A program made the position numbers and the translations under genes. From positions 1 to 64,000 of the forward strand of contig NZ_VJNA01000013.1 in assembly GCF_007556585.1 (NCBI RefSeq): DNA of 64,000 nt, written 5' to 3'. Positions 23,082 to 35,697 of this stretch are shown piece after piece (position 1 is the stretch's first letter; each line of letters opens with the position of its first letter). The stretch is from Tepidimonas aquatica (GTDB taxonomy: Bacteria; Pseudomonadota; Gammaproteobacteria; Burkholderiales; Burkholderiaceae_C). The notes beneath the pieces are model-generated. The model had not been told where the DNA came from. It saw only the letters and a list, made by a program, of their open reading frames with translations, and did no database searches.

Positions 23082-23087
23082 ATTATA
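23082..23087 (-). promoter_or_regulatory. rpsF: Promoter of the rpsF operon (-10 element)
   Basis: The minus strand carries a perfect TATAAT 63 bases upstream of rpsF, overlapping the stop codon of the upstream symporter gene. A TTGCGC at 23107-23112 could be the -35 with a rather long 19-base spacer. Confidence 0.5.
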
Positions 23088-25170
23088 GCCCGCCGGCTGC
23101 TGGCGTGCGCAAGCGCCTCACCCACGCGCGTCGCGCCGCCGTGGGCGCCGGTGTCACCAGGCTGACCACCACCAGGGCGGCGGCGCTGGCCGGCACGCCG
23201 AACACGCCCGCGGCCATCGGGTCAATCCCCCACCACAGCCCCGGCTCGATATGCACCCCCAGCCAGCTGCGCACCCACGGCTGGTTGACCACCATGTAAC
23301 CGAGTGTGACGCCGACACCGGTCAGCATCGCCGCCACCGCACCAGGGCCGTTGGCGCGGGTCCAAAAAATCCCCGCGACCAGTGGCACGAAAAACGCCGA
23401 TGCCGCCAACGAAAACGCCGCCGCCACCAGCGGCAGGATGTCCGCTGGCCGCTGCGCCGCCAGGTAGGTGGCCAGCAGCGCCACCACCAGCAGCAGCACC
23501 TTGGACAGTGTCACGCGCCGCGCGGTGGCGGCCTGGGGGACGAGCGTCTTGTAGTACACGTCGTGGCTGAGTGCGCTGGTGATGGCCAGCAGCAAGCCGT
23601 CCGCCGTCGACAGCGCCGCCGCCAAGCCCCCTGCCGCCACCAGCGCCGCCACCACGTAGGGCAACCCCGCGATTTCGGACGCCGCCAGCACGATGATGTC
23701 CGCGCCCAGTGTGATTTCGCCCCACTGCAGCACGCCGTCGCGGTTGACGTCACGCACCGACAACAGCGCCGGGTCGACCCGACTCCACGCCGTCACCCAC
23801 GCCGGCAGCCGGTCCACGGGCATGCCCACGAGCTGACTCAGCACCTCGTGCTTGACAAACACCGCCAGCGCCGGCGCCGTCACGTACAGCAAGGCGATAA
23901 AACCCACGCCCCACACCACCGACCAGCGCGCCGCGGCCACCGTGGGCACCGTGTAAAACCGCACCAGCAGGTGGGGCAGCGACGCCGTGCCGACCATCAG
24001 GCAAAACACCAGCGCCAGAAAATTGCGCCGCGACGTCTCGAACGCTTCGCGCTGCGCCGCGGTGCCGTGGGGGTCGCCAGCAAACGGCTTGGCCTGTGGC
24101 GCCACCCCCGCCAGCGGCTGCGCGCGCGCCTGGGCATGTGCCCACTGTTGGCGCCACAGCGCCTCGGCGGCCACGGCGTCGCGCGGCAGGCGCAACAGCG
24201 CGCGCTCGGTGGCGGCGATCTCGTTCGCATCGGCCCCCAGCTGGCGCAACGCCTGCAGGTGACCTTCGAGCTGGTCGCGCTCGCGTTGCAGCGCCGCGGC
24301 GGGGTCCCGCAGCCGTTCGGCCAACACGTGCGCCTGGTTGGCCCACACCCGCTGCACATGGCGCTCGGCGGGGTCATCGAGCAGCGCTTGCTCGCGTTGC
24401 AACACCCGCTGCAGCTGCTCGCCGTAGGTCAGCAGGGCCAGTGGTGAGCCAGTCTGCTTGTACGACAGCCACGCCACCGGCACCGCAAACGCCAGCATCA
24501 GCACGATGTACTGCGCCACCTGCGTCCACGTGATGGCGCGCATGCCCCCCAAAAACGAACACACCAGGATGCCCCCCAACCCCAGGAAGACACCCACCTC
24601 GAACGCCAAGCCGGTCAGGCGCGAGGTGATCAGCCCGACGCCGACGATCTGCGCCACCACGTAGACGAACGAGCACAGCAGCACCGCCACCACGGCCAGC
24701 AACCGTGGCACGGTGCCCCCGTAGCGCTCGGCCAAAAAGTCGGGGATCGTCAACCCACCATAGCGGCGCAGGTACGGCGCCAGCAGTACCGCCACCAGCA
24801 CAAAGCCGCCCGACCACCCCAGCACAAACGCCAGCCCACCAAACCCCTGCAGGTACAAGGTGCCCGCCAGCCCGATGAACGAGGCCGCCGACAGCCAATC
24901 GGCCGCCAGCGCCATGCCGTTGAACAGCGCCGGCACACGCCGCCCGGCCACGTAGTATGCGGTGGCGTCGACCGTGCGTGCCGCCAAGCCGATCGTGGCG
25001 TACACGCCCAGGGTGGCCAGCAAAAAAGTCAGGCCGATGGCCATGCGCGACACCCCCAGGTGCTCCAGCGCACCCAGCAGCACCGTGAACAACACGAACG
25101 CCAGCGTAAAGCGGGCGTACAGACGCAGCAAGACACGCTGCGATGGCACATCGGCGGTGGGCGGTTGCAT
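23083..25170 (-). CDS. Sodium:solute symporter (SSS family) with EF-hand-like loop
   Basis: The 695-residue inner membrane protein has 12-14 hydrophobic spans and the SSS signature regions (FNGMALAADWLSAASFIGLAG near 83-103 in parts; ALVAAGGLAAALSTADGLLL near 510). By similarity to the VC_2705/ActP-like group it probably carries a small monocarboxylate with Na+. Two features stand out. A charged, helical insertion runs from about 250 to 385 between membrane spans. A 12-residue EF-hand-type loop (DVNRDGVLQWGE) lies at residues 474-485. The start at 25170 is chosen because the sequence before it belongs to the divergent gene's leader. It is divergent from the CBS/DUF294 gene. Confidence 0.85.
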   Translation of the reverse strand: MQPPTADVPSQRVLLRLYARFTLAFVLFTVLLGALEHLGVSRMAIGLTFLLATLGVYATIGLAARTVDATAYYVAGRRVPALFNGMALAADWLSAASFIGLAGTLYLQGFGGLAFVLGWSGGFVLVAVLLAPYLRRYGGLTIPDFLAERYGGTVPRLLAVVAVLLCSFVYVVAQIVGVGLITSRLTGLAFEVGVFLGLGGILVCSFLGGMRAITWTQVAQYIVLMLAFAVPVAWLSYKQTGSPLALLTYGEQLQRVLQREQALLDDPAERHVQRVWANQAHVLAERLRDPAAALQRERDQLEGHLQALRQLGADANEIAATERALLRLPRDAVAAEALWRQQWAHAQARAQPLAGVAPQAKPFAGDPHGTAAQREAFETSRRNFLALVFCLMVGTASLPHLLVRFYTVPTVAAARWSVVWGVGFIALLYVTAPALAVFVKHEVLSQLVGMPVDRLPAWVTAWSRVDPALLSVRDVNRDGVLQWGEITLGADIIVLAASEIAGLPYVVAALVAAGGLAAALSTADGLLLAITSALSHDVYYKTLVPQAATARRVTLSKVLLLVVALLATYLAAQRPADILPLVAAAFSLAASAFFVPLVAGIFWTRANGPGAVAAMLTGVGVTLGYMVVNQPWVRSWLGVHIEPGLWWGIDPMAAGVFGVPASAAALVVVSLVTPAPTAARRAWVRRLRTPAAGGL

Positions 25171-25264
25171 GCCAGGGATCCGCGGCCGCGCAGCGGTGGC
25201 TGCCGGCGCACACGGCGGTGTACGATGCGATGATCTTAGCGCCAACCCGATCCGATGCCCCGCC

Positions 25265-26719
25265 ATGCCCGAGCCACCAACCTGTCTCAATGACACGCTG
25301 ACCCTGACCTCGACGCCGGTGCGTTCGCTGCTGCGCCGCGCGCCCATCTGCGTGCCCCCCGAGCTGCCGGTGCGTGCGGCGGCGCAGACGATGCGCGAGC
25401 ACAACGTGTCGTCGGTGCTGGTCACCGACGGTGACACGCTGCGCGGCATCGTGACCGACCGCGACCTGCGCAACCGCGTGCTGGCCGCGGGGCTCGACCC
25501 CCAGCGGCCGATCATCGAGGTGGCCACCACCGCCGTGCAAACGGTCGATATCGGCGACGCGGCCTTCGATGCGCTGCTGTTGATGGCGCGCCTCAACATC
25601 CACCATGTGCCCGTCACCGACGGCGGCCGCGTGGTCGGCCTAATTTCCAGCAGCGACCTGCAGCAGCGGCAAAGCGACTCGGCGGTGGTGCTGGCCCAAG
25701 CCATTTACCAGCAAGACAGCGTGGCCGAGCTGCAAGCCGTGGCGGCGCGTATCCCCGCGCTGCAGCGCCAACTCGCGACGGCCGGCACCAGCGCGCATGC
25801 GATGGGGCGCATGGTGTCGGCGATGACCGACGCCATCACCACCCGGCTGCTGCAACTGGCCGAACGTGAGCTGGGGCCGGCGCCGGTGCCCTGGGCGTGG
25901 GTGGCGGCCGGCTCGCAAGGCCGCAACGAACAAACCGCCAAAAGCGACCAGGACAACTGCCTGGTGCTGGACGACGCCTACGACGCAGCGCAACATGGCC
26001 CCTACTTCGAGGCGCTGGCGCGCTTCGTCTGCGACGGCCTCAACGCCTGCGGCTACGTCTACTGCCCAGGCGAGATGATGGCGCTGACCGCGACGTGGCG
26101 CCAGCCCTGGAGCCGCTGGCGGGAGTATTTCGTGCGTTGGATCGAGACCCCCGACCCCAAGGCGTTGATGCTGACCTGTGTGTTTTTCGATCAGCGCTTC
26201 GTCGCCGGCGAGCGCGCGCTGCTGGACACACTGCGGGCCGAGGTGCTGGCGCGCACGCCCAAGCAGCGTATCTTTTTGGCGCACATGGTGTCCAACGCAC
26301 TCGCCCACACCCCGCCGCTGAACTGGCTGGGCAACCTGCAAACGATCCGCGGCGGCGAGCACGACGGCACCATCGACCTCAAGCACAGCGGCATCGTGCC
26401 GATCATCGACCTGGCGCGCGTTTATGCCCTGGCCGGAGGCATTGCCGCGGTCAACACGCGCGAGCGCCTGCTGCACAGCGCCGACAGCGGCGAAATCACC
26501 CGCGAGCGGGTGCGCGACCTGCTGGCCGCACTGGAGTTTTTGACCACGCTGCGCGTGCAGCACCAGGTGCGCCGCCTGGAGGCGGGACAGCCGGCCGACA
26601 ATTTTTTGCGCCCGGACGAACTGTCCGTCCTGGAACAGCGCCACCTCAAGGACGCCTTCGCGGTCGTCAAGGCGTTGCAAGGGGTGCTGGAAAAACGCTA
26701 CCTGGCCGGGCGCTTTTAG
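25265..26719 (+). CDS. CBS-domain / DUF294 nucleotidyltransferase-like signalling protein
   Basis: The 484-residue cytoplasmic protein has a pair of CBS domains (about residues 20-135; VTDGDTLRGIVTDRDLRNRV and VTDGGRVVGLISSSDL). A DUF294 putative nucleotidyltransferase domain follows, with the motif GSQGRNEQT (216-224) and SDQD (227-230), and then its C-terminal helical domain. CBS pairs bind adenosyl nucleotides; the chemistry of the DUF294 part is not established. No cyclic-nucleotide domain is present. Related proteins are found next to acetate-type symporters and DnaQ-like exonucleases, as here, so a role in regulating transport or carbon metabolism is inferred. Confidence 0.82.
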   Translation: MPEPPTCLNDTLTLTSTPVRSLLRRAPICVPPELPVRAAAQTMREHNVSSVLVTDGDTLRGIVTDRDLRNRVLAAGLDPQRPIIEVATTAVQTVDIGDAAFDALLLMARLNIHHVPVTDGGRVVGLISSSDLQQRQSDSAVVLAQAIYQQDSVAELQAVAARIPALQRQLATAGTSAHAMGRMVSAMTDAITTRLLQLAERELGPAPVPWAWVAAGSQGRNEQTAKSDQDNCLVLDDAYDAAQHGPYFEALARFVCDGLNACGYVYCPGEMMALTATWRQPWSRWREYFVRWIETPDPKALMLTCVFFDQRFVAGERALLDTLRAEVLARTPKQRIFLAHMVSNALAHTPPLNWLGNLQTIRGGEHDGTIDLKHSGIVPIIDLARVYALAGGIAAVNTRERLLHSADSGEITRERVRDLLAALEFLTTLRVQHQVRRLEAGQPADNFLRPDELSVLEQRHLKDAFAVVKALQGVLEKRYLAGRF

Positions 26720-26726
26720 CGCGAAC

Positions 26727-26744
26727 ACGCCAAGGGCTTGGCGT
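26727..26744 (+). repeat. Perfect palindrome before the toxin-antitoxin genes
   Basis: ACGCCAAG-GG-CTTGGCGT forms two 8-base arms just upstream of the toxin gene and 8 bases after the preceding stop codon. It could be an operator bound by the antitoxin or toxin-antitoxin complex. A very short-looped terminator of the preceding gene is the alternative, but no T-run follows. Confidence 0.45.
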
Positions 26745-26757
26745 CTCCGGCGATATC

Positions 26758-27342
26758 ATGGACAATATGATCACCAGGATCGTCCTCGACACCAATGTCC
26801 TGGTTGCAGCCAGTCGCAGCCGTCATGGCGCGTCTTTCGCGCTGTTACACGCCGTGCGGCAGCGTCGGTTGCGCCCGTTGGCGTCTGTACCGTTGATGTT
26901 GGAGTACGAAGCGGCGCTCAAGCGGTGTGCGCATGAAGCGGCGTTTCGTGCTGTGCCGGTCGATACGTTTTTGGATGCGTTGTCGCTTTTTATCGAACCG
27001 GTGACGTTGCATTACCAGGCCGTTGAAAAACGTCGCGAGGATGGCCAGATGCAAGGCGCACGGAGCACAGCGACCGAAGCCTATCAAACAGATAGGCGAG
27101 GGAGCGAGCACCGCGCAACGCCGCAGATGGCCTACCGCAGCAGTTTTTCAACGGCCTGCTACTTGTGGCGTCCCCAGCTACCCGATCCAAGCGATGAAAT
27201 GGTGCTGGAAACCGCGCTCAATGGTCACGCCGATGCGTTGGCCACCCACAACGTGGCTGACTTTGCCGCAGCGGCCAAGCGTTTCGCTTTGCCGCTGCTG
27301 ACACCGCGACAGTTGGTATCGTCTTGGCACGAGGACCTCTGA
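26758..27342 (+). CDS. PIN-domain toxin (VapC-like), expanded in frame by a palindromic element
   Basis: The 194-residue product has a PIN ribonuclease fold: RIVLDTNVLVAA at the start (D11 the first metal ligand), an acidic residue in LMLEYEAAL, and DPSDEMVLETA and THNVADF towards the end. PIN toxins cleave RNA. The usual size is about 140-145. Here residues 87-134 are encoded by an inserted palindromic element, so LHY is separated from LWRPQLPDP by 48 foreign residues plus a duplicated Tyr. The frame is kept. The starts at 26758 or 26767 are both possible. Base composition is lower in GC than in the neighbours, suggesting acquisition. Whether the enlarged toxin is active is unknown. Confidence 0.8.
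   Translation: MDNMITRIVLDTNVLVAASRSRHGASFALLHAVRQRRLRPLASVPLMLEYEAALKRCAHEAAFRAVPVDTFLDALSLFIEPVTLHYQAVEKRREDGQMQGARSTATEAYQTDRRGSEHRATPQMAYRSSFSTACYLWRPQLPDPSDEMVLETALNGHADALATHNVADFAAAAKRFALPLLTPRQLVSSWHEDL
27016..27159. mobile_element. MITE-like palindromic element inserted in the toxin gene
   Basis: Perfect 16-base terminal inverted repeats, CAGGCCGTTGAAAAAC at 27016-27031 and GTTTTTCAACGGCCTG at 27143-27158, enclose a roughly palindromic core. Its centre is the hairpin GCCTATC-aaaca-GATAGGC (27079-27097). The element is flanked by TAC on both sides (27013-27015 and 27160-27162), a probable 3-base target duplication with one extra C. It encodes no transposase. Removing it together with one TAC restores a normal PIN-domain reading (LHY-LWRPQ). 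Confidence 0.82.
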
Positions 27343-27664: not shown

Positions 27665-29857
27665 TCAGTACGTCAGCCGGGCGTAGTAGGTGCGCTCGGC
27701 GGCTTGGCGCGCCTGGCCCAGGGTGACGATGCCCTGCTGCGCCAGCAGCGGGATGAGGCGCAAAAACACCTCGGCCGTCACCAGCGCATCGCCCAGCGCG
27801 GTGTGGCGGCCCAGCACAGCGATGCCAAAGCGCGCGGCGATCTCGTCCAGGCTGTGCGAGGGCTGCTCCGGGTGCACCACCGCCGACAACAGCAAGGTGT
27901 CCAGCACCGGCTGGTCGAAGCTGACACCGACGAGGCGCTCCTTCAGCTGCAAAAACCGCATGTCGAACGCGGCGTTGTGCGCCACCAGCACCGTGTCGCG
28001 GGCAAAGGCATGGAACGCCGGCAACACCTGCGTGATGTCGGGCTGGCCGCGCACCATCTCGGGCGTGATGCCATGGATGGGAATGGAGGCGCGCGGAATC
28101 GGCCGACGGGGATCGATCAGCTGCTCAAAACTCTCGTGCCGCAGCAGCCGCCCGTTGACGATGCGGGTGGCGCCGATCTGGATGATTTCGTCACCGTCGG
28201 ATGGGTTGAGGCCGGTGGTTTCGGTGTCGAACACGGTGTAGACCAGCTCGGTCAGGGGCACGTCGTCCCACGCGCGTGCCGCGGGGCTGACGCGAAACAG
28301 ATCGAAGTCGTAAAACTCCGGGCGGCTTTCCACGCGCACCATGGACGGCGCCTCGACGCTGGCGGCCGGCACCGCGGCTGGCAGCAACAGCCGTAAACAG
28401 GTTAGCCCCTGGGCCGGTTCGTCTTGCACCCAGGCGTCGCCACCGTGGCGCTGGGCCACCTCGCGCACGGTGCCGTGGGCGCTGCCCTCGGCGTCGCTGT
28501 CGAGCCAACCCTGGCAGGGCGCGGCGCCGGTGCGCGCGGTGGGCCAGGCCAGCTCCAGCGTGACGTGCGCCGCCGGCCCCACCCCGCTGGCCGGTGCCAG
28601 CCTCAGCGTCACGCGGTCCACCCCGCCATCCGCCGCCAAACGTTGCACGAAGCGCTGCAACGCATGGGCCAAGCCCAGGCTTTCCACCCGCAGCCAGCAC
28701 GCCGGGTCGGGCTCGCGCACGTCGATCTGTACGCCCGGCACTTCGGCCAGGCGGCGTTGCAGCACGGCCAGCACGTCGGCCCCCAGCATGTCCTCCAACG
28801 GGGCGTGCGCCGTCGTGTCGGCCAGCCCTTCGCGCGCGACCTCGTGCAGGCGGTCGCCCAGCGCCACCACCTCGTCACGGATCACGGCCAGCAGCCGCTC
28901 GCGCAGCGCCGCGTCGGCGTCGGGCAGCTGCAGCACCTCGACGGCCGCGCGCACGTTGCCGACCGCGCGGCGCGCCGCCTCGGTCAAGTTGGCCCACAGG
29001 CGTTGCTGCTGCGCGGCCTGCTCGTATTCGCGCGTGATGTTGTCCAGCACCAGCACGAACCCCGCCATGGCGGCGGGGTCGGTGTCGCGCGGGCGGCCCT
29101 CCTCTTCGACCAGCCGCACGGGGGCCACCTGCACGCGCAGCAACTGCCCGCCCCGTGTGGCGGTGACGAACTGGGTGCTGGGCTGCGCCGCCCCCTTGCG
29201 CAGGCGCTGGCGCAGCTCGTCCAGCGCGTGGGCGAGCACGGCGCGGTCCAGCACGGTGTAAATCGAGCGGCCCAACCCCAGCAGCTCGGCGCCGCCCAAC
29301 CCCTGCGGCGCTTGCGACAACGCACGCACCTGCAACCGGGCGCGGTTGTTGTACAGCAGCACGCGGCCATCCAGGTTGCAGACGATGACGCTTTGCGTCA
29401 GCTCGGCCATCAGCGCGGCCAAGCGGCGCTTTTCTTGCTCGATGTCGCGCGCGGCGGCGCGCACGCGCTCGTCCACCTCGCGCCGCCAGCGCTCCCGCTG
29501 CCGCACCAGCTCGTTGAACAGATGCGCGACCCGGCGCACGTCGGCCGGTCCTCGCTCGCGCAGCGTGGGTGGCGGATCGGCCGTCAGCAGCACGGCCGCT
29601 TCTTCGGCCAGGCGCCGCCAGGGGTGCACGCCGACGTCGAAGGCGCGCTGCAGCCCCCAGCCGATCCCCGTCATCCCCAACAGCCACATCAGCAGCACCA
29701 AACCCCAACGGTCGCCCAGCAGCTCCAGCATGCGCTGGCGCGCCTCCGGCTCCAGCGTGACGGCGATCAACCCGACGGTCACCCCCAGCCAGGCCAGCGA
29801 CACCGCCGCGGCCCCGGCCAGCAGCCACCACAGGCGGCGATCGACCCGCCGTTTCAT
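27665..29857 (-). CDS. Membrane PAS / degenerate-kinase protein fused to a DnaQ-type 3'-5' exonuclease
   Basis: The 730-residue protein has two N-terminal membrane spans (about 8-32 and 50-68), a HAMP-like helical region, a PAS-like domain (about 145-270) and a region resembling a histidine kinase dimerisation and ATPase module (about 280-500). This region lacks a clear phospho-acceptor histidine and the N and G boxes. A C-terminal DEDDh exonuclease follows (from about 540), with D544 and E546 in FDTETTG, D632 in NAAFDMRF, and H685 and D690 in HTALGD. The exonuclease catalytic set is complete. It overlaps the receiver gene by 4 bases (ATGA). A nuclease tethered to a membrane sensor is unusual; it is often annotated simply as DNA polymerase III epsilon, but a replication role is unlikely. 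Confidence 0.8.
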   Translation of the reverse strand: MKRRVDRRLWWLLAGAAAVSLAWLGVTVGLIAVTLEPEARQRMLELLGDRWGLVLLMWLLGMTGIGWGLQRAFDVGVHPWRRLAEEAAVLLTADPPPTLRERGPADVRRVAHLFNELVRQRERWRREVDERVRAAARDIEQEKRRLAALMAELTQSVIVCNLDGRVLLYNNRARLQVRALSQAPQGLGGAELLGLGRSIYTVLDRAVLAHALDELRQRLRKGAAQPSTQFVTATRGGQLLRVQVAPVRLVEEEGRPRDTDPAAMAGFVLVLDNITREYEQAAQQQRLWANLTEAARRAVGNVRAAVEVLQLPDADAALRERLLAVIRDEVVALGDRLHEVAREGLADTTAHAPLEDMLGADVLAVLQRRLAEVPGVQIDVREPDPACWLRVESLGLAHALQRFVQRLAADGGVDRVTLRLAPASGVGPAAHVTLELAWPTARTGAAPCQGWLDSDAEGSAHGTVREVAQRHGGDAWVQDEPAQGLTCLRLLLPAAVPAASVEAPSMVRVESRPEFYDFDLFRVSPAARAWDDVPLTELVYTVFDTETTGLNPSDGDEIIQIGATRIVNGRLLRHESFEQLIDPRRPIPRASIPIHGITPEMVRGQPDITQVLPAFHAFARDTVLVAHNAAFDMRFLQLKERLVGVSFDQPVLDTLLLSAVVHPEQPSHSLDEIAARFGIAVLGRHTALGDALVTAEVFLRLIPLLAQQGIVTLGQARQAAERTYYARLTY

Positions 29858-30231
29858 CGCGGCGTCTCCAGCAGCTCACGCACGCGCTGCACCAGGTCGG
29901 CGGTGGCAAACGGTTTGGTCAGGTAGGCGTCGGCCCCCAGGGCCAAACCACGGGCGACGTCGCTGTCGCGGCCCTTGGCGGTCAGCATCACCACGCGCAC
30001 CGACGCCAGCGCCGGGTCGCTGCGGATCAGCCCACAGACTTCAAACCCGTCGCGTTGCGGCATCATCACGTCCAGCAGGACGAGGTCGGGGCGCCACTGC
30101 TGCACGGCCTGCCAGCCCTCTTCGCCGTCGCGCGCGCTGCGTACCTCGTAGCCTTCGCGCCGCATCAAAAACTCCAAAGGCAGCAGGATGTTGGGTTCGT
30201 CATCGACGATCAGCACGCGCGGGGCGACCAT
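29854..30231 (-). CDS. Stand-alone response regulator receiver (CheY-like)
   Basis: The 125-residue product is a single receiver domain with the acidic pocket D10-D11, the phospho-acceptor D54 in LVLLDVMMP, the Thr/Ala switch in MLTAKG and the conserved lysine in YLTKPF. It has no output domain. The gene sits between the symporter-kinase upstream (50-base gap) and the exonuclease fusion (4-base overlap), so it is probably phosphorylated by the kinase. It may act on the degenerate kinase/exonuclease protein by contact, which is inference. Confidence 0.9.
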   Translation of the reverse strand: MVAPRVLIVDDEPNILLPLEFLMRREGYEVRSARDGEEGWQAVQQWRPDLVLLDVMMPQRDGFEVCGLIRSDPALASVRVVMLTAKGRDSDVARGLALGADAYLTKPFATADLVQRVRELLETPR

Positions 30232-30281: not shown

Positions 30282-33011
30282 TTAGTGTACGTCCATGGGC
30301 TGACGTGGCCCCAACAGCGGCAGCTCGATGACGAAGCATGCCCCGGGGCCAGCGTCGGCCTCCAGCCACAGCCGCCCGCCCAGGTGCTCGACGATGCGGC
30401 GGCTGATCGGCAGCCCCAGGCCGGTGCCACCGCGGGCACCCTTGCCTTGGTGAAAGCGCTCGAAAATCGTCTCGCGTTCGGCCGCCGGCACGCCAGGGCC
30501 GTTGTCGAGCACGGCGACCCGCACAGTGCCCTGCGCGCCTGGCGGCCCGGGCTCGACCCGCACCTGCACCCAGCCGGTGCCATCGTCCGGCACAAAACGC
30601 GCGGCGTTGGACAGCAGGTTGAGCAACGCCTGCTGCAGCCGGTCGGGGTCGGCGCGCACCACCGCCTGCGGCAGCGTGGTCTGCACCTCCAGCCGGGCAT
30701 GACGCGCCTGCAGCAACGGGTCCGCGGCGGCAGCGGCGTGCTTGACGAGCTGCACCAGATCCACCTCGGCGCTGACCCAGTCGGCACGCCCGGCTTCGAT
30801 TTTGGCCAGGTCCAGCACCTGGTTGACCAGCCGCGACAGGCGCTGTGCTTCGTCGACGATGACACCCAGAAACTGCTGGCGCTGCTCGCTGGGCAGTCCC
30901 GGCTCGTCGCGCAGGATTTCGGCCAGCGCCCGGATCGACGTCAGCGGTGTGCGCAGTTCGTGCGTCACCGACGACATGAAGTCGTCTTTGAGCCGGTCGA
31001 GCTCCTGCAGCCGCGCGTTGGCGGCCTGCAACTGGCGGGTGGTTTCCTGCAACGAGCGCGACAGCGTCTTCAGGCGGCTGGTTTCCTGCAACAGGTCGAG
31101 CACGTCGTCGACCGACAGCGGCTGCTCCTGCACGACCGACGCCACCAGGCGGCGCGCCGACGCGCTGCCGACCGTACCGGCCAACTGGGTTTCGGCCCAT
31201 TGCACCAACGCCGCGTCGGCTTCCAGCCGCGCCAGCGGCACACCGCGTTGGCGCGCCTGCTCGGCCAACCGCGCTTGGGCTTGTTCGGCCCCCAACACGC
31301 GCGCCAGCAACGTCTGCAACGCCGGCAACGTAGCCTGCCCCCGCCACAGCACTGGCAGGCTCGCCTCGTCGCCCGCGTGGGCACCCCGCGGCTGGGTGTA
31401 CAGCATGGCTTGCGCGGTTTCGGCCACCCCCGGCGGGCGTGCCAGCGACACGCCCACGTACAGTGCGACGTTGACCAGCAGGCTCCAAAACAGCCCGTGG
31501 GTCAGGGCGTCGAAACCCTGCAAGCCCAACAACGCCTCGGGCCGCAGCAGCCCCCAACCGAACAGACCGTGATCCACCCACCCGCGCGGCAACCAACCCG
31601 ATTTGGCCAACGACGGCAACATCAGCGTGTAGGCCCACACGGCAAAGCCGCCCAGCAACCCCGCCAGCGCCCCGGCGTGGCTGGCACCGCGCCACAGCAA
31701 GCCACCGAACAGCGCCGGCGCGAATTGCGCCACCGCAGCAAAGCTGATGAGGCCAATGCTGACCAGCGCGTAAGCATCGCCCGCCGCCCGGTAGTACCCG
31801 TAGCCGAGCAGCAACACGCCCACGATGGTGGCGCGCCGGATGCGCAACACCGCCCGCCGCAGGTCGCCGTCGGCGTGCACCACAGCGCGGCGGCGCAACC
31901 ACCACGGCAACACCAGGTCGTTGCAGACCATCGTGGCCACCGCGATCGACTCGACGATGACCATGCCGGTGGCAGCCGACACCCCCCCGAGGTAGACCAG
32001 CAGCACCAGCGCGTCCAGCCCCATGGTCTGCGGCAGCCGCAGCACGAACAGCTCGGCCTGCACGGCAGCCTGTGGTCCCCACACCAGCAGGCCGGCCAAC
32101 GCCAGCGGCAACACAAACAGGTTGATCAGCCACAGGTACAGCGGAAACACCCACGCCGCGCGGCGCAGGTGGCGATCATCCTCCAGCTCCACCACCATGA
32201 CCTGAAACTGACGCGGCAGCAACAGCACCGACAGGCCCGCCAGCAGCGTCAGCGCCGCCCAGCTCGACCACGCGAAGGCGCCCGGGTCCCCCAGCGTCAA
32301 CAGGCGCGCCAGCTCCGGCACCGTCTGGGCACGCCGCAACAGGTCCGCTGGCCCGTCGAACAGCCCCCACGTCACCGCCACGCCGGCCGCCACAAAAGCC
32401 ACCAGCTTGACCATCGACTCCAGCGCGATGGCCGTCACCATGCCAGCGTGGCGCTCGGTGCCGTCCCAGTGCCGTACCCCAAACACGATGGTGAACGCCG
32501 CCAGCCCCAAGGCCAGGTACAGCGTGCTGTCCGCCCACCACGCTTGGGCGTGTGCCACCTGCAGCGGTTGCCCGGTCACCACCGCCGTGGCCACCGCGAT
32601 GCCTTTGATTTGTAGCGCGATGTACGGCACGATGCCCACCACGGTGATCAGGGTGACGGCGCCGGCCAGCAGCGAGCTTTTGCCGTAGCGGTTGGCGATG
32701 AAGTCGGCGATGGTGGTGATGCGCTGCTGGCGTGCGATGCGCACGATGCGCCGTAGCACCACCCACGCCAGCACCATGGCCAGCGTGGGGCCGAGGTAAA
32801 TCGGCAAAAACCACAGCCCGCCGCTGGCGGCACGCCCGACGCTACCGAAGTAGGTCCACGCGGTGCAATACACCGCCAACGACAGGGCGTACACCCAGGC
32901 GCTGCGCGTCGGCGAGCGCCCGGCGCGCGCCCGGGCGTCGGCCCAGTGCGCTACCGCAAACAACAACCCCAGGTAAGCGAACGCGGCGCTGGCGACGACG
33001 GCGGTGGACAT
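30282..33011 (-). CDS. Histidine kinase with sodium:solute symporter-like sensor domain (CbrA/CrbS type)
   Basis: The 909-residue protein begins with about 12 membrane spans of SSS/SLC5 type (roughly residues 1-500). A STAC-like helical linker region (about 510-620), a coiled-coil stretch, a HisKA domain with H684 in SSVTHELRTPLTS, and a HATPase domain follow (N box NLLSNAARF near 798, DNGPG near 836, GGTGLGL). It is not a hybrid: no receiver is fused. In CbrA and CrbS the symporter-like domain links transport to signalling; CrbS controls acetate scavenging in Vibrio and Pseudomonas. The start at 33011 (MSTAVVA) is preferred over an ATG three codons earlier. The ligand here is unknown; acetate-like acids are suggested by the neighbours. 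Confidence 0.88.
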   Translation of the reverse strand: MSTAVVASAAFAYLGLLFAVAHWADARARAGRSPTRSAWVYALSLAVYCTAWTYFGSVGRAASGGLWFLPIYLGPTLAMVLAWVVLRRIVRIARQQRITTIADFIANRYGKSSLLAGAVTLITVVGIVPYIALQIKGIAVATAVVTGQPLQVAHAQAWWADSTLYLALGLAAFTIVFGVRHWDGTERHAGMVTAIALESMVKLVAFVAAGVAVTWGLFDGPADLLRRAQTVPELARLLTLGDPGAFAWSSWAALTLLAGLSVLLLPRQFQVMVVELEDDRHLRRAAWVFPLYLWLINLFVLPLALAGLLVWGPQAAVQAELFVLRLPQTMGLDALVLLVYLGGVSAATGMVIVESIAVATMVCNDLVLPWWLRRRAVVHADGDLRRAVLRIRRATIVGVLLLGYGYYRAAGDAYALVSIGLISFAAVAQFAPALFGGLLWRGASHAGALAGLLGGFAVWAYTLMLPSLAKSGWLPRGWVDHGLFGWGLLRPEALLGLQGFDALTHGLFWSLLVNVALYVGVSLARPPGVAETAQAMLYTQPRGAHAGDEASLPVLWRGQATLPALQTLLARVLGAEQAQARLAEQARQRGVPLARLEADAALVQWAETQLAGTVGSASARRLVASVVQEQPLSVDDVLDLLQETSRLKTLSRSLQETTRQLQAANARLQELDRLKDDFMSSVTHELRTPLTSIRALAEILRDEPGLPSEQRQQFLGVIVDEAQRLSRLVNQVLDLAKIEAGRADWVSAEVDLVQLVKHAAAAADPLLQARHARLEVQTTLPQAVVRADPDRLQQALLNLLSNAARFVPDDGTGWVQVRVEPGPPGAQGTVRVAVLDNGPGVPAAERETIFERFHQGKGARGGTGLGLPISRRIVEHLGGRLWLEADAGPGACFVIELPLLGPRQPMDVH

Positions 33012-33047
33012 GGCCGGCAAGCCCTTGCGTCGTGCGCGCCAGCCGCT

Positions 33048-33289: not shown

Positions 33290-35680
33290 TCAGCCCTGGG
33301 CCAGGCGTTGCCAGGTATCCACCACGGTGTCCGGGTTCAGCGAGATCGAGCTGATGCCCTTATCCATCAGCCAGCGCGCGAAGTCCGGATGGTCGCTGGG
33401 CCCCTGACCGCAGATGCCGATGTACTTGCCCTGCGCACGGCAGGCCTCGATGGAGCGCTCGATCAACGCCAGCACCGCCGGGTCGCGCTCGTCGAAGTCG
33501 TGCGCCAGCAGCTCCAGACCCGAGTCGCGGTCCAACCCCAGCGTCAGCTGCGTGAGGTCGTTGGAGCCAATCGAAAAGCCGTCGAAGTACTGCAAGAACT
33601 GCTCGGCCAAAATGGCGTTGCTCGGGATTTCGCACATCATGATGAGCTTGAGGTCGTGCTCGCCGCGCTTGAGCCCCATCGAGGCCAGCAGCTCGGTGAC
33701 GCGCTGGGCCTGCGCCAGCGTGCGCACGAACGGCACCATCACCTGCACGTTGGTCAGGCCCATGTCCAGCCGCACGCGCTTGAGGGCTTCGACCTCCATC
33801 GCGAACGCCTCGGCGAAGTCGTCGCTGATGTAGCGCGCCGCACCGCGGAAACCCAGCATCGGGTTTTCTTCGTCGGGCTCGTAGCGGCTGCCGCCGATGA
33901 GTTTGCGGTACTCGTTGCTCTTGAAGTCGCTCAGTCGCACGATGACGGGCTTGGGCCAGAACGCTGCCGCGATAGTGGCCACGCCTTCGGCCACCTTGTC
34001 GACGTAAAAGGCGCGCGGGCTGGCGTGGCCGCGCGCGGCGGACTCCACCGCGCGCTTGAGGTCAGCGTCGATCTGCGGATAGTCCAGGATCGCCTTGGGG
34101 TGCACGCCGATGTTGTTGTTGATGATGAACTCCAGCCGCGCCAGCCCCACGCCGCCGTTGGGGATCTGGGCAAAGTCGAACGCCAGTTGCGGATTGCCCA
34201 CGTTCATCATGATCTTGACCGGCAGCTCGGGCATGGCGCCGCGCTGCACCTCGGTCACCTCGGTCTCAAGCAGCCCTTCGTAAATATGGCCGGTGTCGCC
34301 CTCGGCGCAGCTGACGGTGACCAACTGCCCGTCCTTGAGCGCCTCGGTGGCGTTGCCGCAGCCCACCACGGCCGGGATGCCCAGCTCGCGCGCGATGATG
34401 GCGGCATGGCAGGTGCGCCCGCCACGGTTGGTAACGATGGCGCTGGCGCGCTTCATGATCGGTTCCCAGTTGGGGTCGGTCATGTCGGTGACCAGCACGT
34501 CGCCCGGCTGCACCTTGTCCATCTCGGCGATCGAGTGCACGATGCGCACCTTGCCGGTGCCGATTTTTTGGCCGATGGCGCGGCCCTGCGCCAGCAACGG
34601 CCCCTTGGCCTTGAGCTTGTAGCGCAGCTCCACCTGGCCGCTGGCCTGGCTTTTGACCGTCTCAGGGCGGGCCTGCAGGATGTAGATCTGGCCGTCCACG
34701 CCGTCCTTGCCCCACTCGATGTCCATCGGACGGCCGTAGTGTTGCTCGATGATCAGCGCGTAGCGCGCCAGCTCCAGCACCTCGGCGTCAGACAAGCAGT
34801 AGCGGTTGCGCTGCTCGGGCGGCACGTCCACCGTTTTGACCAGCTTGCCGCCGGCGGCCTTGTCCTCGTCGCTGGCAAACACCATCTGGATCAGCTTGCT
34901 GCCCAGCGTGCGCCGGATGATGGCCTGTTTGCCCGCCTTGAGCATGGGCTTGTGCACATAGAACTCGTCGGGGTTGACGGCGCCTTGCACGACCGTTTCG
35001 CCCAAGCCGTAGCTGGCGGTGATGAACACCACGTCCTCAAAGCCGCTTTCGGTGTCGATCGTGAACATCACCCCCGAGGCGCCCAGGTCCGAGCGCACCA
35101 TGCGCTGCACACCGGCCGACAACGCCACCTCGCTGTGCGCAAAGCCCTTGTGCACGCGGTAGCTGATCGCACGGTCGTTGTACAGGCTGGCGAACACTTC
35201 CTTGATCTTGTGCAGGATGTGCTCGATACCCACGACGTTGAGGAAGGTCTCCTGCTGACCCGCGAACGACGCGTCGGGCAGGTCTTCGGCCGTGGCGGAC
35301 GAGCGCACCGCGTAGCTGGCGTTGAGGCCACCGTCAAGCTTGGCGTAGGCCTCGCGGATGGCGGCTTCGAGCGCGGGCGGGAACGGCTGCGCCTCGACCA
35401 TGGCGCGGATCTCGGCGCCGGTGGCCGCCAGCGCCTTGACGTCGTCGGCATCCAGCGCCGCCAGCTTGGCGTGGATGCGCTCGTCCAAGCCGCCGTGCTT
35501 GAGGAACTCACGAAACGCGTGCGCCGTCGTGGCAAAGCCCGTGGGCACGCGCACCCCTTGGGGCAGTTGCGAAATCATTTCGCCCAGGCTGGCGTTTTTG
35601 CCGCCAACGATCTCGACGTCGGCCATGCGCAGCTGCTCGAACGGCACCACCAGCGCGTCAGGGGGAAAACGGTTGGACAT
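33290..35680 (-). CDS. ppsA: Phosphoenolpyruvate synthase
   Basis: The 796-residue enzyme converts pyruvate, ATP and water to PEP, AMP and phosphate, needed for growth on C2-C3 acids. Domain order is the N-terminal ATP-grasp part ([36 protein letters not shown] in parts), the swivelling phosphohistidine domain ([18 protein letters not shown], catalytic His) and the C-terminal PEP/pyruvate barrel. The start at 35680 has a GAGGAG site 8 bases upstream; a GTG three codons earlier is unlikely. It is divergent from its regulator ppsR and close to the C2-acid transport genes. Confidence 0.97.
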
Positions 35681-35697
35681 GGTGAACACTCCTCGAT

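Follow-up and report, generated by a model that had tools for sequence, protein, structure and literature searches.

The 64,000-nucleotide stretch of Tepidimonas aquatica DNA analyzed here (hereafter the window; contig NZ_VJNA01000013.1 of assembly GCF_007556585.1, positions 1 to 64,000) carries on its minus strand, at 27665-29857, a gene with an ATG start codon whose 730-residue product combines a putative membrane anchor, a PAS-like domain, a pseudo-histidine kinase and a DEDDh 3'-5' exonuclease, as judged from the list of open reading frames (ORFs), the translation, Pfam and NCBIfam searches, an alignment of 81 homologues and a structure model. An initial annotation, made from the DNA letters and their ORFs alone, had described a membrane sensor with a degenerate kinase region fused to an intact DEDDh exonuclease; ORF, domains, alignment and model confirm this overall observation, with the correction that the gene lies on the minus strand, and the interpretation attached to it is partly supported. 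A chance ORF is ruled out: in 80 of 80 homologous loci, which are the best matches listed from a named genome collection and so represent closest relatives only (Tepidimonas, Hydrogenophaga, Rhodoferax, Zoogloea, Thauera, Thiothrix, Colwellia, Thioalkalivibrio and others), the nuclease ORF runs uninterrupted in a single frame, and the homologues measure 717-787 amino acids when starts are picked close to the stop codon of the receiver gene described below.

The alignment of 81 homologues of the 730-residue protein was also the input to an AlphaFold model of the whole protein, which has a mean predicted local distance difference test (pLDDT) score of 84 and a predicted template-modelling (pTM) score of 0.39, so that the relative placing of the domains is not fixed by the model. 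The modelled order is two helices (residues 7-34 and 37-76), a long helix (105-151), a PAS-like fold, a helical hairpin (275-309 and 316-344), a sandwich resembling the catalytic and ATP-binding (CA) part of histidine kinases, and the exonuclease. The first two helices (29630-29839, minus strand) had been put forward as membrane spans; both appear in the model and the first is also detected by hydropathy (19-residue windows above 1.6 cover residues 9-37), whereas the second contains no such window and is less sure as a span. The protein is probably membrane-anchored. The PAS-like domain proposed earlier (residues 142-276; 29030-29434, minus strand) is present as a fold in the model; the corresponding hidden Markov model check gave a PAS_4 match at residues 153-248 that falls below the Pfam cut-off (19.4 versus 23.1 bits), and the mean frequency of the commonest residue in this region among the 81 homologues is 0.79, against 0.65-0.71 in the kinase-like region.

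The exonuclease domain (residues 539-730; 27668-28243, minus strand) is defined by Pfam, by sequence and fold matches to solved structures and by its catalytic residues. RNase_T (PF00929) matches residues 542-698 with E 1.5e-38 and 133.4 bits against a cut-off of 24, and the five catalytic residues that had been reported as intact (D544, E546, D632, H685 and D690) are identical in 81/81 aligned homologues and likewise present at every one of 100 other exonuclease loci. By these sequence criteria the nuclease domain looks intact. Its closest sequence in the PDB is the PolC-type proofreading domain 2p1j (E 2.8e-35), with PolC, epsilon and DinG also matched, and its fold matches PolC, DinG and epsilon with Z of 21-25. 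In three more distant relatives (L165, L170 and L171, also within L224, L263 and L286) PAS and pseudokinase are kept while all five nuclease residues are lost, and kinase and nuclease both look dead; in L224 a receiver-like gene (29.7 bits) lies directly upstream.

Between the PAS-like domain and the nuclease lies the kinase-like region (residues 276-497; 28367-29032, minus strand), which was characterized by profile comparison, residue counts, separate folding and Pfam searches on the 81 members. A functional kinase is rejected. Neither HisKA nor HATPase matches the window protein at E <= 1, and at E <= 0.01 HisKA is found in 3/81 members and HATPase_c in 0/81. The phospho-acceptor position is occupied by E293 (codon 28979-28981, minus strand), and the residue is Glu in 77 and Gln in 4 of the 81 sequences, compared with His in 71/71 partner kinases, the window's own included; the N-box position (R406) is Arg in 76, Leu in 2, His in 2 and Lys in 1, never Asn; the Asp of the G1 motif is replaced by Trp (W438) in 81/81; and no conserved GxGxG, representing the G2 glycines, occurs in the aligned stretch of the 81 homologues. 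The partner kinases, again with that of the window among them, retain His, Asn, Asp and the counted glycines in all 71 cases. A His does occur four residues ahead of the acceptor position, off the aligned place, in 54/81 homologues; the window protein has no His at all in residues 285-312. The Thr found at His+4 in all 71 partner kinases is Ala, Ser, Arg or Gly in the pseudokinase, and the Arg at His+3 (R296) is invariant (81/81).

Loss of these motifs is accompanied by retention of the fold. The whole-protein structure search was dominated by the nuclease domain, and the pseudokinase was therefore modelled and searched separately. Modelled alone it reaches a pLDDT of 89 and forms a two-helix hairpin plus a CA sandwich; DivL (4q20) ranks second in Foldseek (E 5.7e-11) with both parts covered, although superposition on DivL gives a template-modelling (TM) score of 0.49 and a root-mean-square deviation (rmsd) of 12.3, reflecting a different relative placing of the two parts. 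The CA part alone superimposes on PrrB with Z 14.9 and rmsd 2.5 over 131 residues. The pseudokinase profile aligns along its length with a profile of the 71 partner kinases at an hhalign probability of 98%. When PDB entries are searched by profile, VicK matches almost the entire pseudokinase (E 9.8e-6), a result that is weak alone given protein A fusions in the same list. As judged from alignment and model, then, the region is a pseudokinase with a complete fold of the dimerization and histidine phosphotransfer (DHp) and CA type in which the tested catalytic motifs are lost; the earlier reading that acceptor His, N box and G box are missing holds, and what had seemed a vague resemblance is a complete DHp-CA fold. 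The replaced positions E293, R406 and W438 are themselves conserved, which suggests a retained non-catalytic role.

Upstream of the nuclease gene on the same strand, the order is an SSF-type sensor histidine kinase, a receiver and the nuclease. The CrbS/MxtR-like kinase (30282-33020, minus strand; a 912-amino-acid ORF), identified by Pfam and residue counts, matches SSF, HisKA and HATPase_c. The receiver (29854-30231, minus strand; 125 amino acids), assigned from its sequence, NCBIfam receiver matches and conservation, is a single domain with residues D10, D11, D54, T84 and K106 present; its ATG at 30231 stands behind AGGAG just past the kinase stop, in a frame open upstream to 32154, and its stop overlaps the nuclease start by 4 bases (ATGA). 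The phosphorylation site is kept in 77/77 receiver sequences, that of the window included. In the 80 best loci an SSF-type kinase lies within the fetched stretch in 73 (it was not found in L053, which is at a contig end, or in L085, L091, L101, L102, L103 and L105), and a same-strand upstream receiver is present in 76 (not found in L091, L102, L103 and L105). The 4-base overlap recurs in 59 of these 76, choice of the start nearest the receiver stop favouring short distances, and in 76/76 the receiver frame ends 0-12 residues past the receiver match, leaving no DNA-binding part. At the Rhodoferax antarcticus locus (L105, 10001-12925), whose stretch has neither receiver nor SSF-type kinase, the N-terminal portion of the nuclease protein is partially matched a second time just upstream. 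A full cluster lies on plasmid 1 of Paracoccus denitrificans PD1222, where five consecutive genes (PDEN_RS25395-PDEN_RS25415) each overlap the next. They encode DUF294 (with CBS), a hypothetical protein of small size, the SSF-type kinase, a 121-residue receiver and a 706-residue PAS-pseudokinase-nuclease annotated only as 'exonuclease domain-containing protein'. From this conserved gene order it seems that the nuclease may be switched by a signal protein encoded next to it.

Whether the receiver accompanies the pseudokinase or the nuclease can be judged from a census of nuclease-domain loci. Searches with the nuclease domain alone, at the levels of order, class and phylum, covered 300, 369 and 398 genomes, of which 21, 22 and 58, respectively, had a match (E <= 1e-50, 1e-35 and 1e-30; own genome included each time). 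The census comprises 103 loci, namely all 100 matching places except that of the window plus three found by the PAS-pseudokinase query alone. A scoring exonuclease is present in 100 (L224, L263 and L286, whose nuclease domain is below score, were left out), and 95 with at least 600 bases upstream were kept (L144, L253, L254, L272 and L280 were dropped). A pseudokinase was counted as present at 30 bits or more on the profile from the 81 homologues, so that L230, L231, L232 and L262 (18-29 bits, no receiver) count as lacking it; the 100 nuclease domains and the 81 profile sequences have one identical member in common, a slight overlap of samples. An adjacent receiver gene ending at the receiver occurs in 58/70 loci with pseudokinase versus 2/25 without (Fisher p 2.7e-11), or 34/39 versus 2/22 by genus (p 1.5e-9), p-values that are inflated by related genomes; moving the four intermediate loci to the other class gives 58/74 versus 2/21. 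In a tree built from 112 nuclease domains, 16 rows have no pseudokinase, no receiver and no DUF294 fusion; placing them takes 7 changes, and well-supported branches force at least 5 of these, which is evidence against one inherited event. On the genus-collapsed counts and these changes, the view that the link is due wholly to a single inherited accident is rejected. Pseudokinase and receiver thus tend to come or go together, and this correlation is the best evidence that they work jointly. In the comparison of fused and unfused homologues that had been recommended, DUF294 is in the fetched stretch or fused in 54/70 loci with pseudokinase and 25/25 without. The earlier suggestion that the receiver may govern the nuclease is backed as to linkage, by gene order and census.

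In the proposal preferred here, for which the chances are judged about even, the nuclease gene encodes the effector of a two-component system: once phosphorylated, the receiver would bind to the pseudokinase and thereby gate a membrane nuclease that acts in organic-acid metabolism; to the computed fold, lost motifs and gene linkage it adds inferred docking, gating, direction of control, ligand and substrate. The SSF-type sensor kinase would sense how a small carboxylate, for instance acetate or pyruvate, is transported or how much of it is available, and would phosphorylate the single-domain receiver whose gene immediately precedes that of the nuclease. The phosphorylated receiver would then dock on the DHp part of the pseudokinase, now a reader of receiver state as DivL is with DivK~P, and the signal, perhaps together with a PAS ligand, would travel down the dimer and switch the C-terminal DEDDh exonuclease at the inner membrane face. 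The nuclease might trim an RNA 3' end or remove nucleotides added by DUF294, so tuning uptake or use of the acid; the candidate substrates (RNA, an oligonucleotide or a nucleotide signal) are guesses, rated lower than the gating model.

DivL is membrane-bound, and DivK is a single receiver domain. DivL of Caulobacter crescentus is described as a pseudo-histidine kinase that reads DivK~P, binding of which is impaired by R553A, a substitution at His+3 (PMC4211667); the likeness to the window protein extends to the DHp-CA fold, replacement of the acceptor His, the kept His+3 Arg, PAS domains and a putative response-regulator ligand. The two proteins differ in that the acceptor is replaced by Tyr in DivL and by Glu in the window protein, and the latter has an exonuclease attached as output. 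A similar layout, with a membrane receptor and an inactive kinase-like domain followed by an enzyme, is known from animal receptor guanylyl cyclases, whose kinase domain is inactive (PMC1592074); these differ in having a Ser/Thr-kinase-type pseudokinase and a cyclase, and no common ancestry of the parts is suggested. A literature text search, with subscription papers largely outside its reach and other papers seen in part, found no description of a fused, receiver-linked nuclease.

Several observations weigh against the docking and gating proposal. DivL retains the N, G1 and G2 motifs (PMC4211667), which the window pseudokinase has lost. The five receiver-contact positions transferred from HK853 have an only modestly raised conservation, 0.785 compared with a DHp average of 0.647, a value equalled by 8% of random sets, and the residues at the contact positions match the partner kinase only in part; adding three DivL contact positions raises the value to 0.843 (equalled by 0.4% of random sets), and the test is only suggestive. 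Adjacent receivers are absent from 12/70 pseudokinase nucleases, and an SSF-type kinase lies in the fetched stretch of only 45/70 (5/25 without pseudokinase). Three of the 12 belong to genomes whose second copy has an adjacent receiver (G053, G390 and G520), and the remaining receiver-less proteins may use a receiver encoded elsewhere. The two copies are L267 and L268 in G053, L252 and L248 in G390, and L251 and L247 in G520. The output of the three more distant relatives devoid of nuclease residues must be different. Finally, a mutant of PP_0354, the CBS protein encoded with the nuclease PP_0353 in Pseudomonas putida, has no pyruvate defect (PMC9927547), which argues against a simple shared pathway.

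The neighbourhood bears on the substrate. A CBS-DUF294 nucleotidyltransferase gene (plus strand; 25265-26719 from a start estimate, the Pfam-matched ORF being 24962-26719) and a VC_2705-family sodium/solute symporter gene (23083-25044, minus strand, likely start 25044; TIGR03648, 694 bits) lie beyond the 3' end of the nuclease gene. DUF294 matches in the fetched stretch in 59/80 best loci and is near or fused in 79/95 census loci; symporter-type genes are found in 36/70 census stretches with pseudokinase and 18/25 without. In 7/100 exonuclease loci (L222, L223 and L238-L242) nuclease and DUF294 are fused, the nuclease being N-terminal and DUF294 at the end, with a CBS match between them in 4 of the 7; in the nuclease-domain tree the fusions form one side of a weakly supported branch. 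A DUF294 motif pattern fits 20/57 aligned sequences, a GSQA variant that the pattern excludes being among the examples shown, and no conclusion on activity is based on it. Association and fusion make a nucleotidylated molecule or the 3' end of an RNA the favoured substrate, and they underlie a different explanation, possible but not probable, in which nuclease and CBS-DUF294 are a writer-eraser pair. Here CBS-DUF294 would attach a nucleotide or a short tail to an RNA or a protein, the DEDDh enzyme would take it off, and the receiver arm would be an addition made in certain lineages. It would be unusual for a DEDDh enzyme to remove a protein modification, which counts against this explanation. 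DUF294_C is grouped with C-terminal domains of GlnD/GlnE-like nucleotidyltransferases (PMC3710099). Pflu5625 of P. fluorescens has CBS and nucleotidyltransferase domains; nucleotidylation is named as its predicted mode of action, and it is discussed as lacking a phenotype (PMC5715377). The differing deletion phenotypes of PP_0353 and PP_0354 count against the pairing (PMC9927547). Receiver gating and nucleotidylation can also be combined, and it is tentatively suggested that a receiver lacking an output domain gates the membrane exonuclease via a dead kinase. The exonuclease and CBS-DUF294 would then form a switch in which nucleotidylation, or an RNA 3' end, is written and erased, and carboxylate sensing would be coupled directly to an enzyme and not to transcription.

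Two other genes are of more local interest. The PIN-domain gene between DUF294 and the nuclease (26737-27342, plus strand; PIN_3 in Pfam, E 2.2e-17) has no tblastn match in the 80 homologous loci and is perhaps a local insertion. The phosphoenolpyruvate synthase gene adjoining the sensor kinase (33290-35689, minus strand; 1254 bits versus a cut-off of 598) has a homologue in the fetched stretch of 17/80 loci, so that the neighbourhood link to pyruvate is limited mainly to close relatives.

The P. putida nuclease PP_0353 stands alone, and CrbR-type regulators have a DNA-binding part of the LuxR type. PP_0353 is probably related to the window nuclease; a stand-alone relative of 203 amino acids, in L219, is 44% identical. 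According to PMC9927547 and PMC8402216, PP_0353, of the RNase_T family, and PP_0354, a CBS protein, are encoded in one operon, and ErdR binds the promoter of PP_0354; ErdR belongs to the MxtR/ErdR system, the sensor kinase of which is SSS-type. Growth of the PP_0353 mutant on pyruvate is impaired or delayed, as is that of mxtR, erdR and actP-I mutants, and on 20 mM acetate neither PP_0353 nor PP_0354 mattered. The likeness to the window thus lies in an RNase_T nuclease beside a CBS protein in an organic-acid context, in some other Pseudomonas beside actP; in contrast, the P. putida pair is tied to its two-component system as a transcription target (PMC9927547), and the window nuclease forms one protein with membrane helices, PAS and pseudokinase and is clustered with kinase and receiver. 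The CrbS/CrbR (MxtR/ErdR) acetate system likewise shares the SSF-type sensor kinase, the symporter and the CBS-nucleotidyltransferase context (PMC5715377, PMC8402216 and PMC9927547), and differs in that the window response regulator has no DNA-binding part and its proposed output is a nuclease. The P. putida authors call the role of PP_0353 in pyruvate use unclear and speculate on mRNA decay (PMC9927547). Applied to the window, this speculation would have the nuclease work close to the membrane and break down the transcripts of genes for carbon metabolism or transporters, a possible but not probable explanation that the pyruvate phenotypes of the PP_0353 and actP-I mutants favour; the source offers it as speculation only, and the sequence examined does not tell RNA from DNA substrates.

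In another explanation, considered unlikely, the pseudokinase is only a dimerising spacer, PAS ligand and membrane localisation govern the nuclease, and the receiver serves a different purpose, for example feeding back on the partner kinase. The better conservation of the PAS region relative to the kinase-like region (0.79 versus 0.65-0.71) fits such a spacer, as do shorter relatives (L215, L216, L221 and L225-L227) with about 270-317 residues ahead of the nuclease and no pseudokinase or receiver match (a PAS profile match in L215 only, weakly). Their open frames are 467-512 amino acids, with DUF294 and a symporter within the stretch. A spacer would, however, have no need of conserved replaced positions E293, R406 and W438, and would not explain why the presence or absence of the pseudokinase goes with that of the receiver far above expectation.

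A tethered, epsilon-like replication or repair exonuclease is very improbable: the nearest solved sequence relatives are indeed proofreading domains of PolC and epsilon, and fold and all five catalytic residues are shared with such PolC- and DnaQ-type DEDDh domains (2p1j, 1j53), but the window protein has no polymerase, has a membrane sensor architecture with signalling domains, clusters with a sensor kinase and scores 111.4 bits on the replicative epsilon model TIGR01406 against an equivalog cut-off of 222.7. A role as replicative epsilon subunit is rejected on this score, half the cut-off, and on a separate DnaQ gene in the same genome (G000:C56) that reaches 291 bits, above it; the initial annotation's view that DNA replication does not explain the protein is upheld. 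Neither of the two results that it had named beforehand as contrary, a full set of functional kinase motifs and replacement of the replicative epsilon subunit, was found.

Two-component systems are mostly known to end in transcription, second messengers or motility. If the proposal of a receiver-gated nuclease is true, a DEDDh nuclease behind a pseudokinase would be an added, post-transcriptional or nucleotidylation output of two-component signalling, and the protein would be a further case of a histidine-kinase core turned receiver reader, resembling DivL but with an unusual enzymatic output. Close relatives of the nuclease domain, fused or not, occur in 58/398 genomes of the phylum sample (own included), and the proposal, if true, would also hint at what CBS-DUF294 proteins and PP_0353 do.

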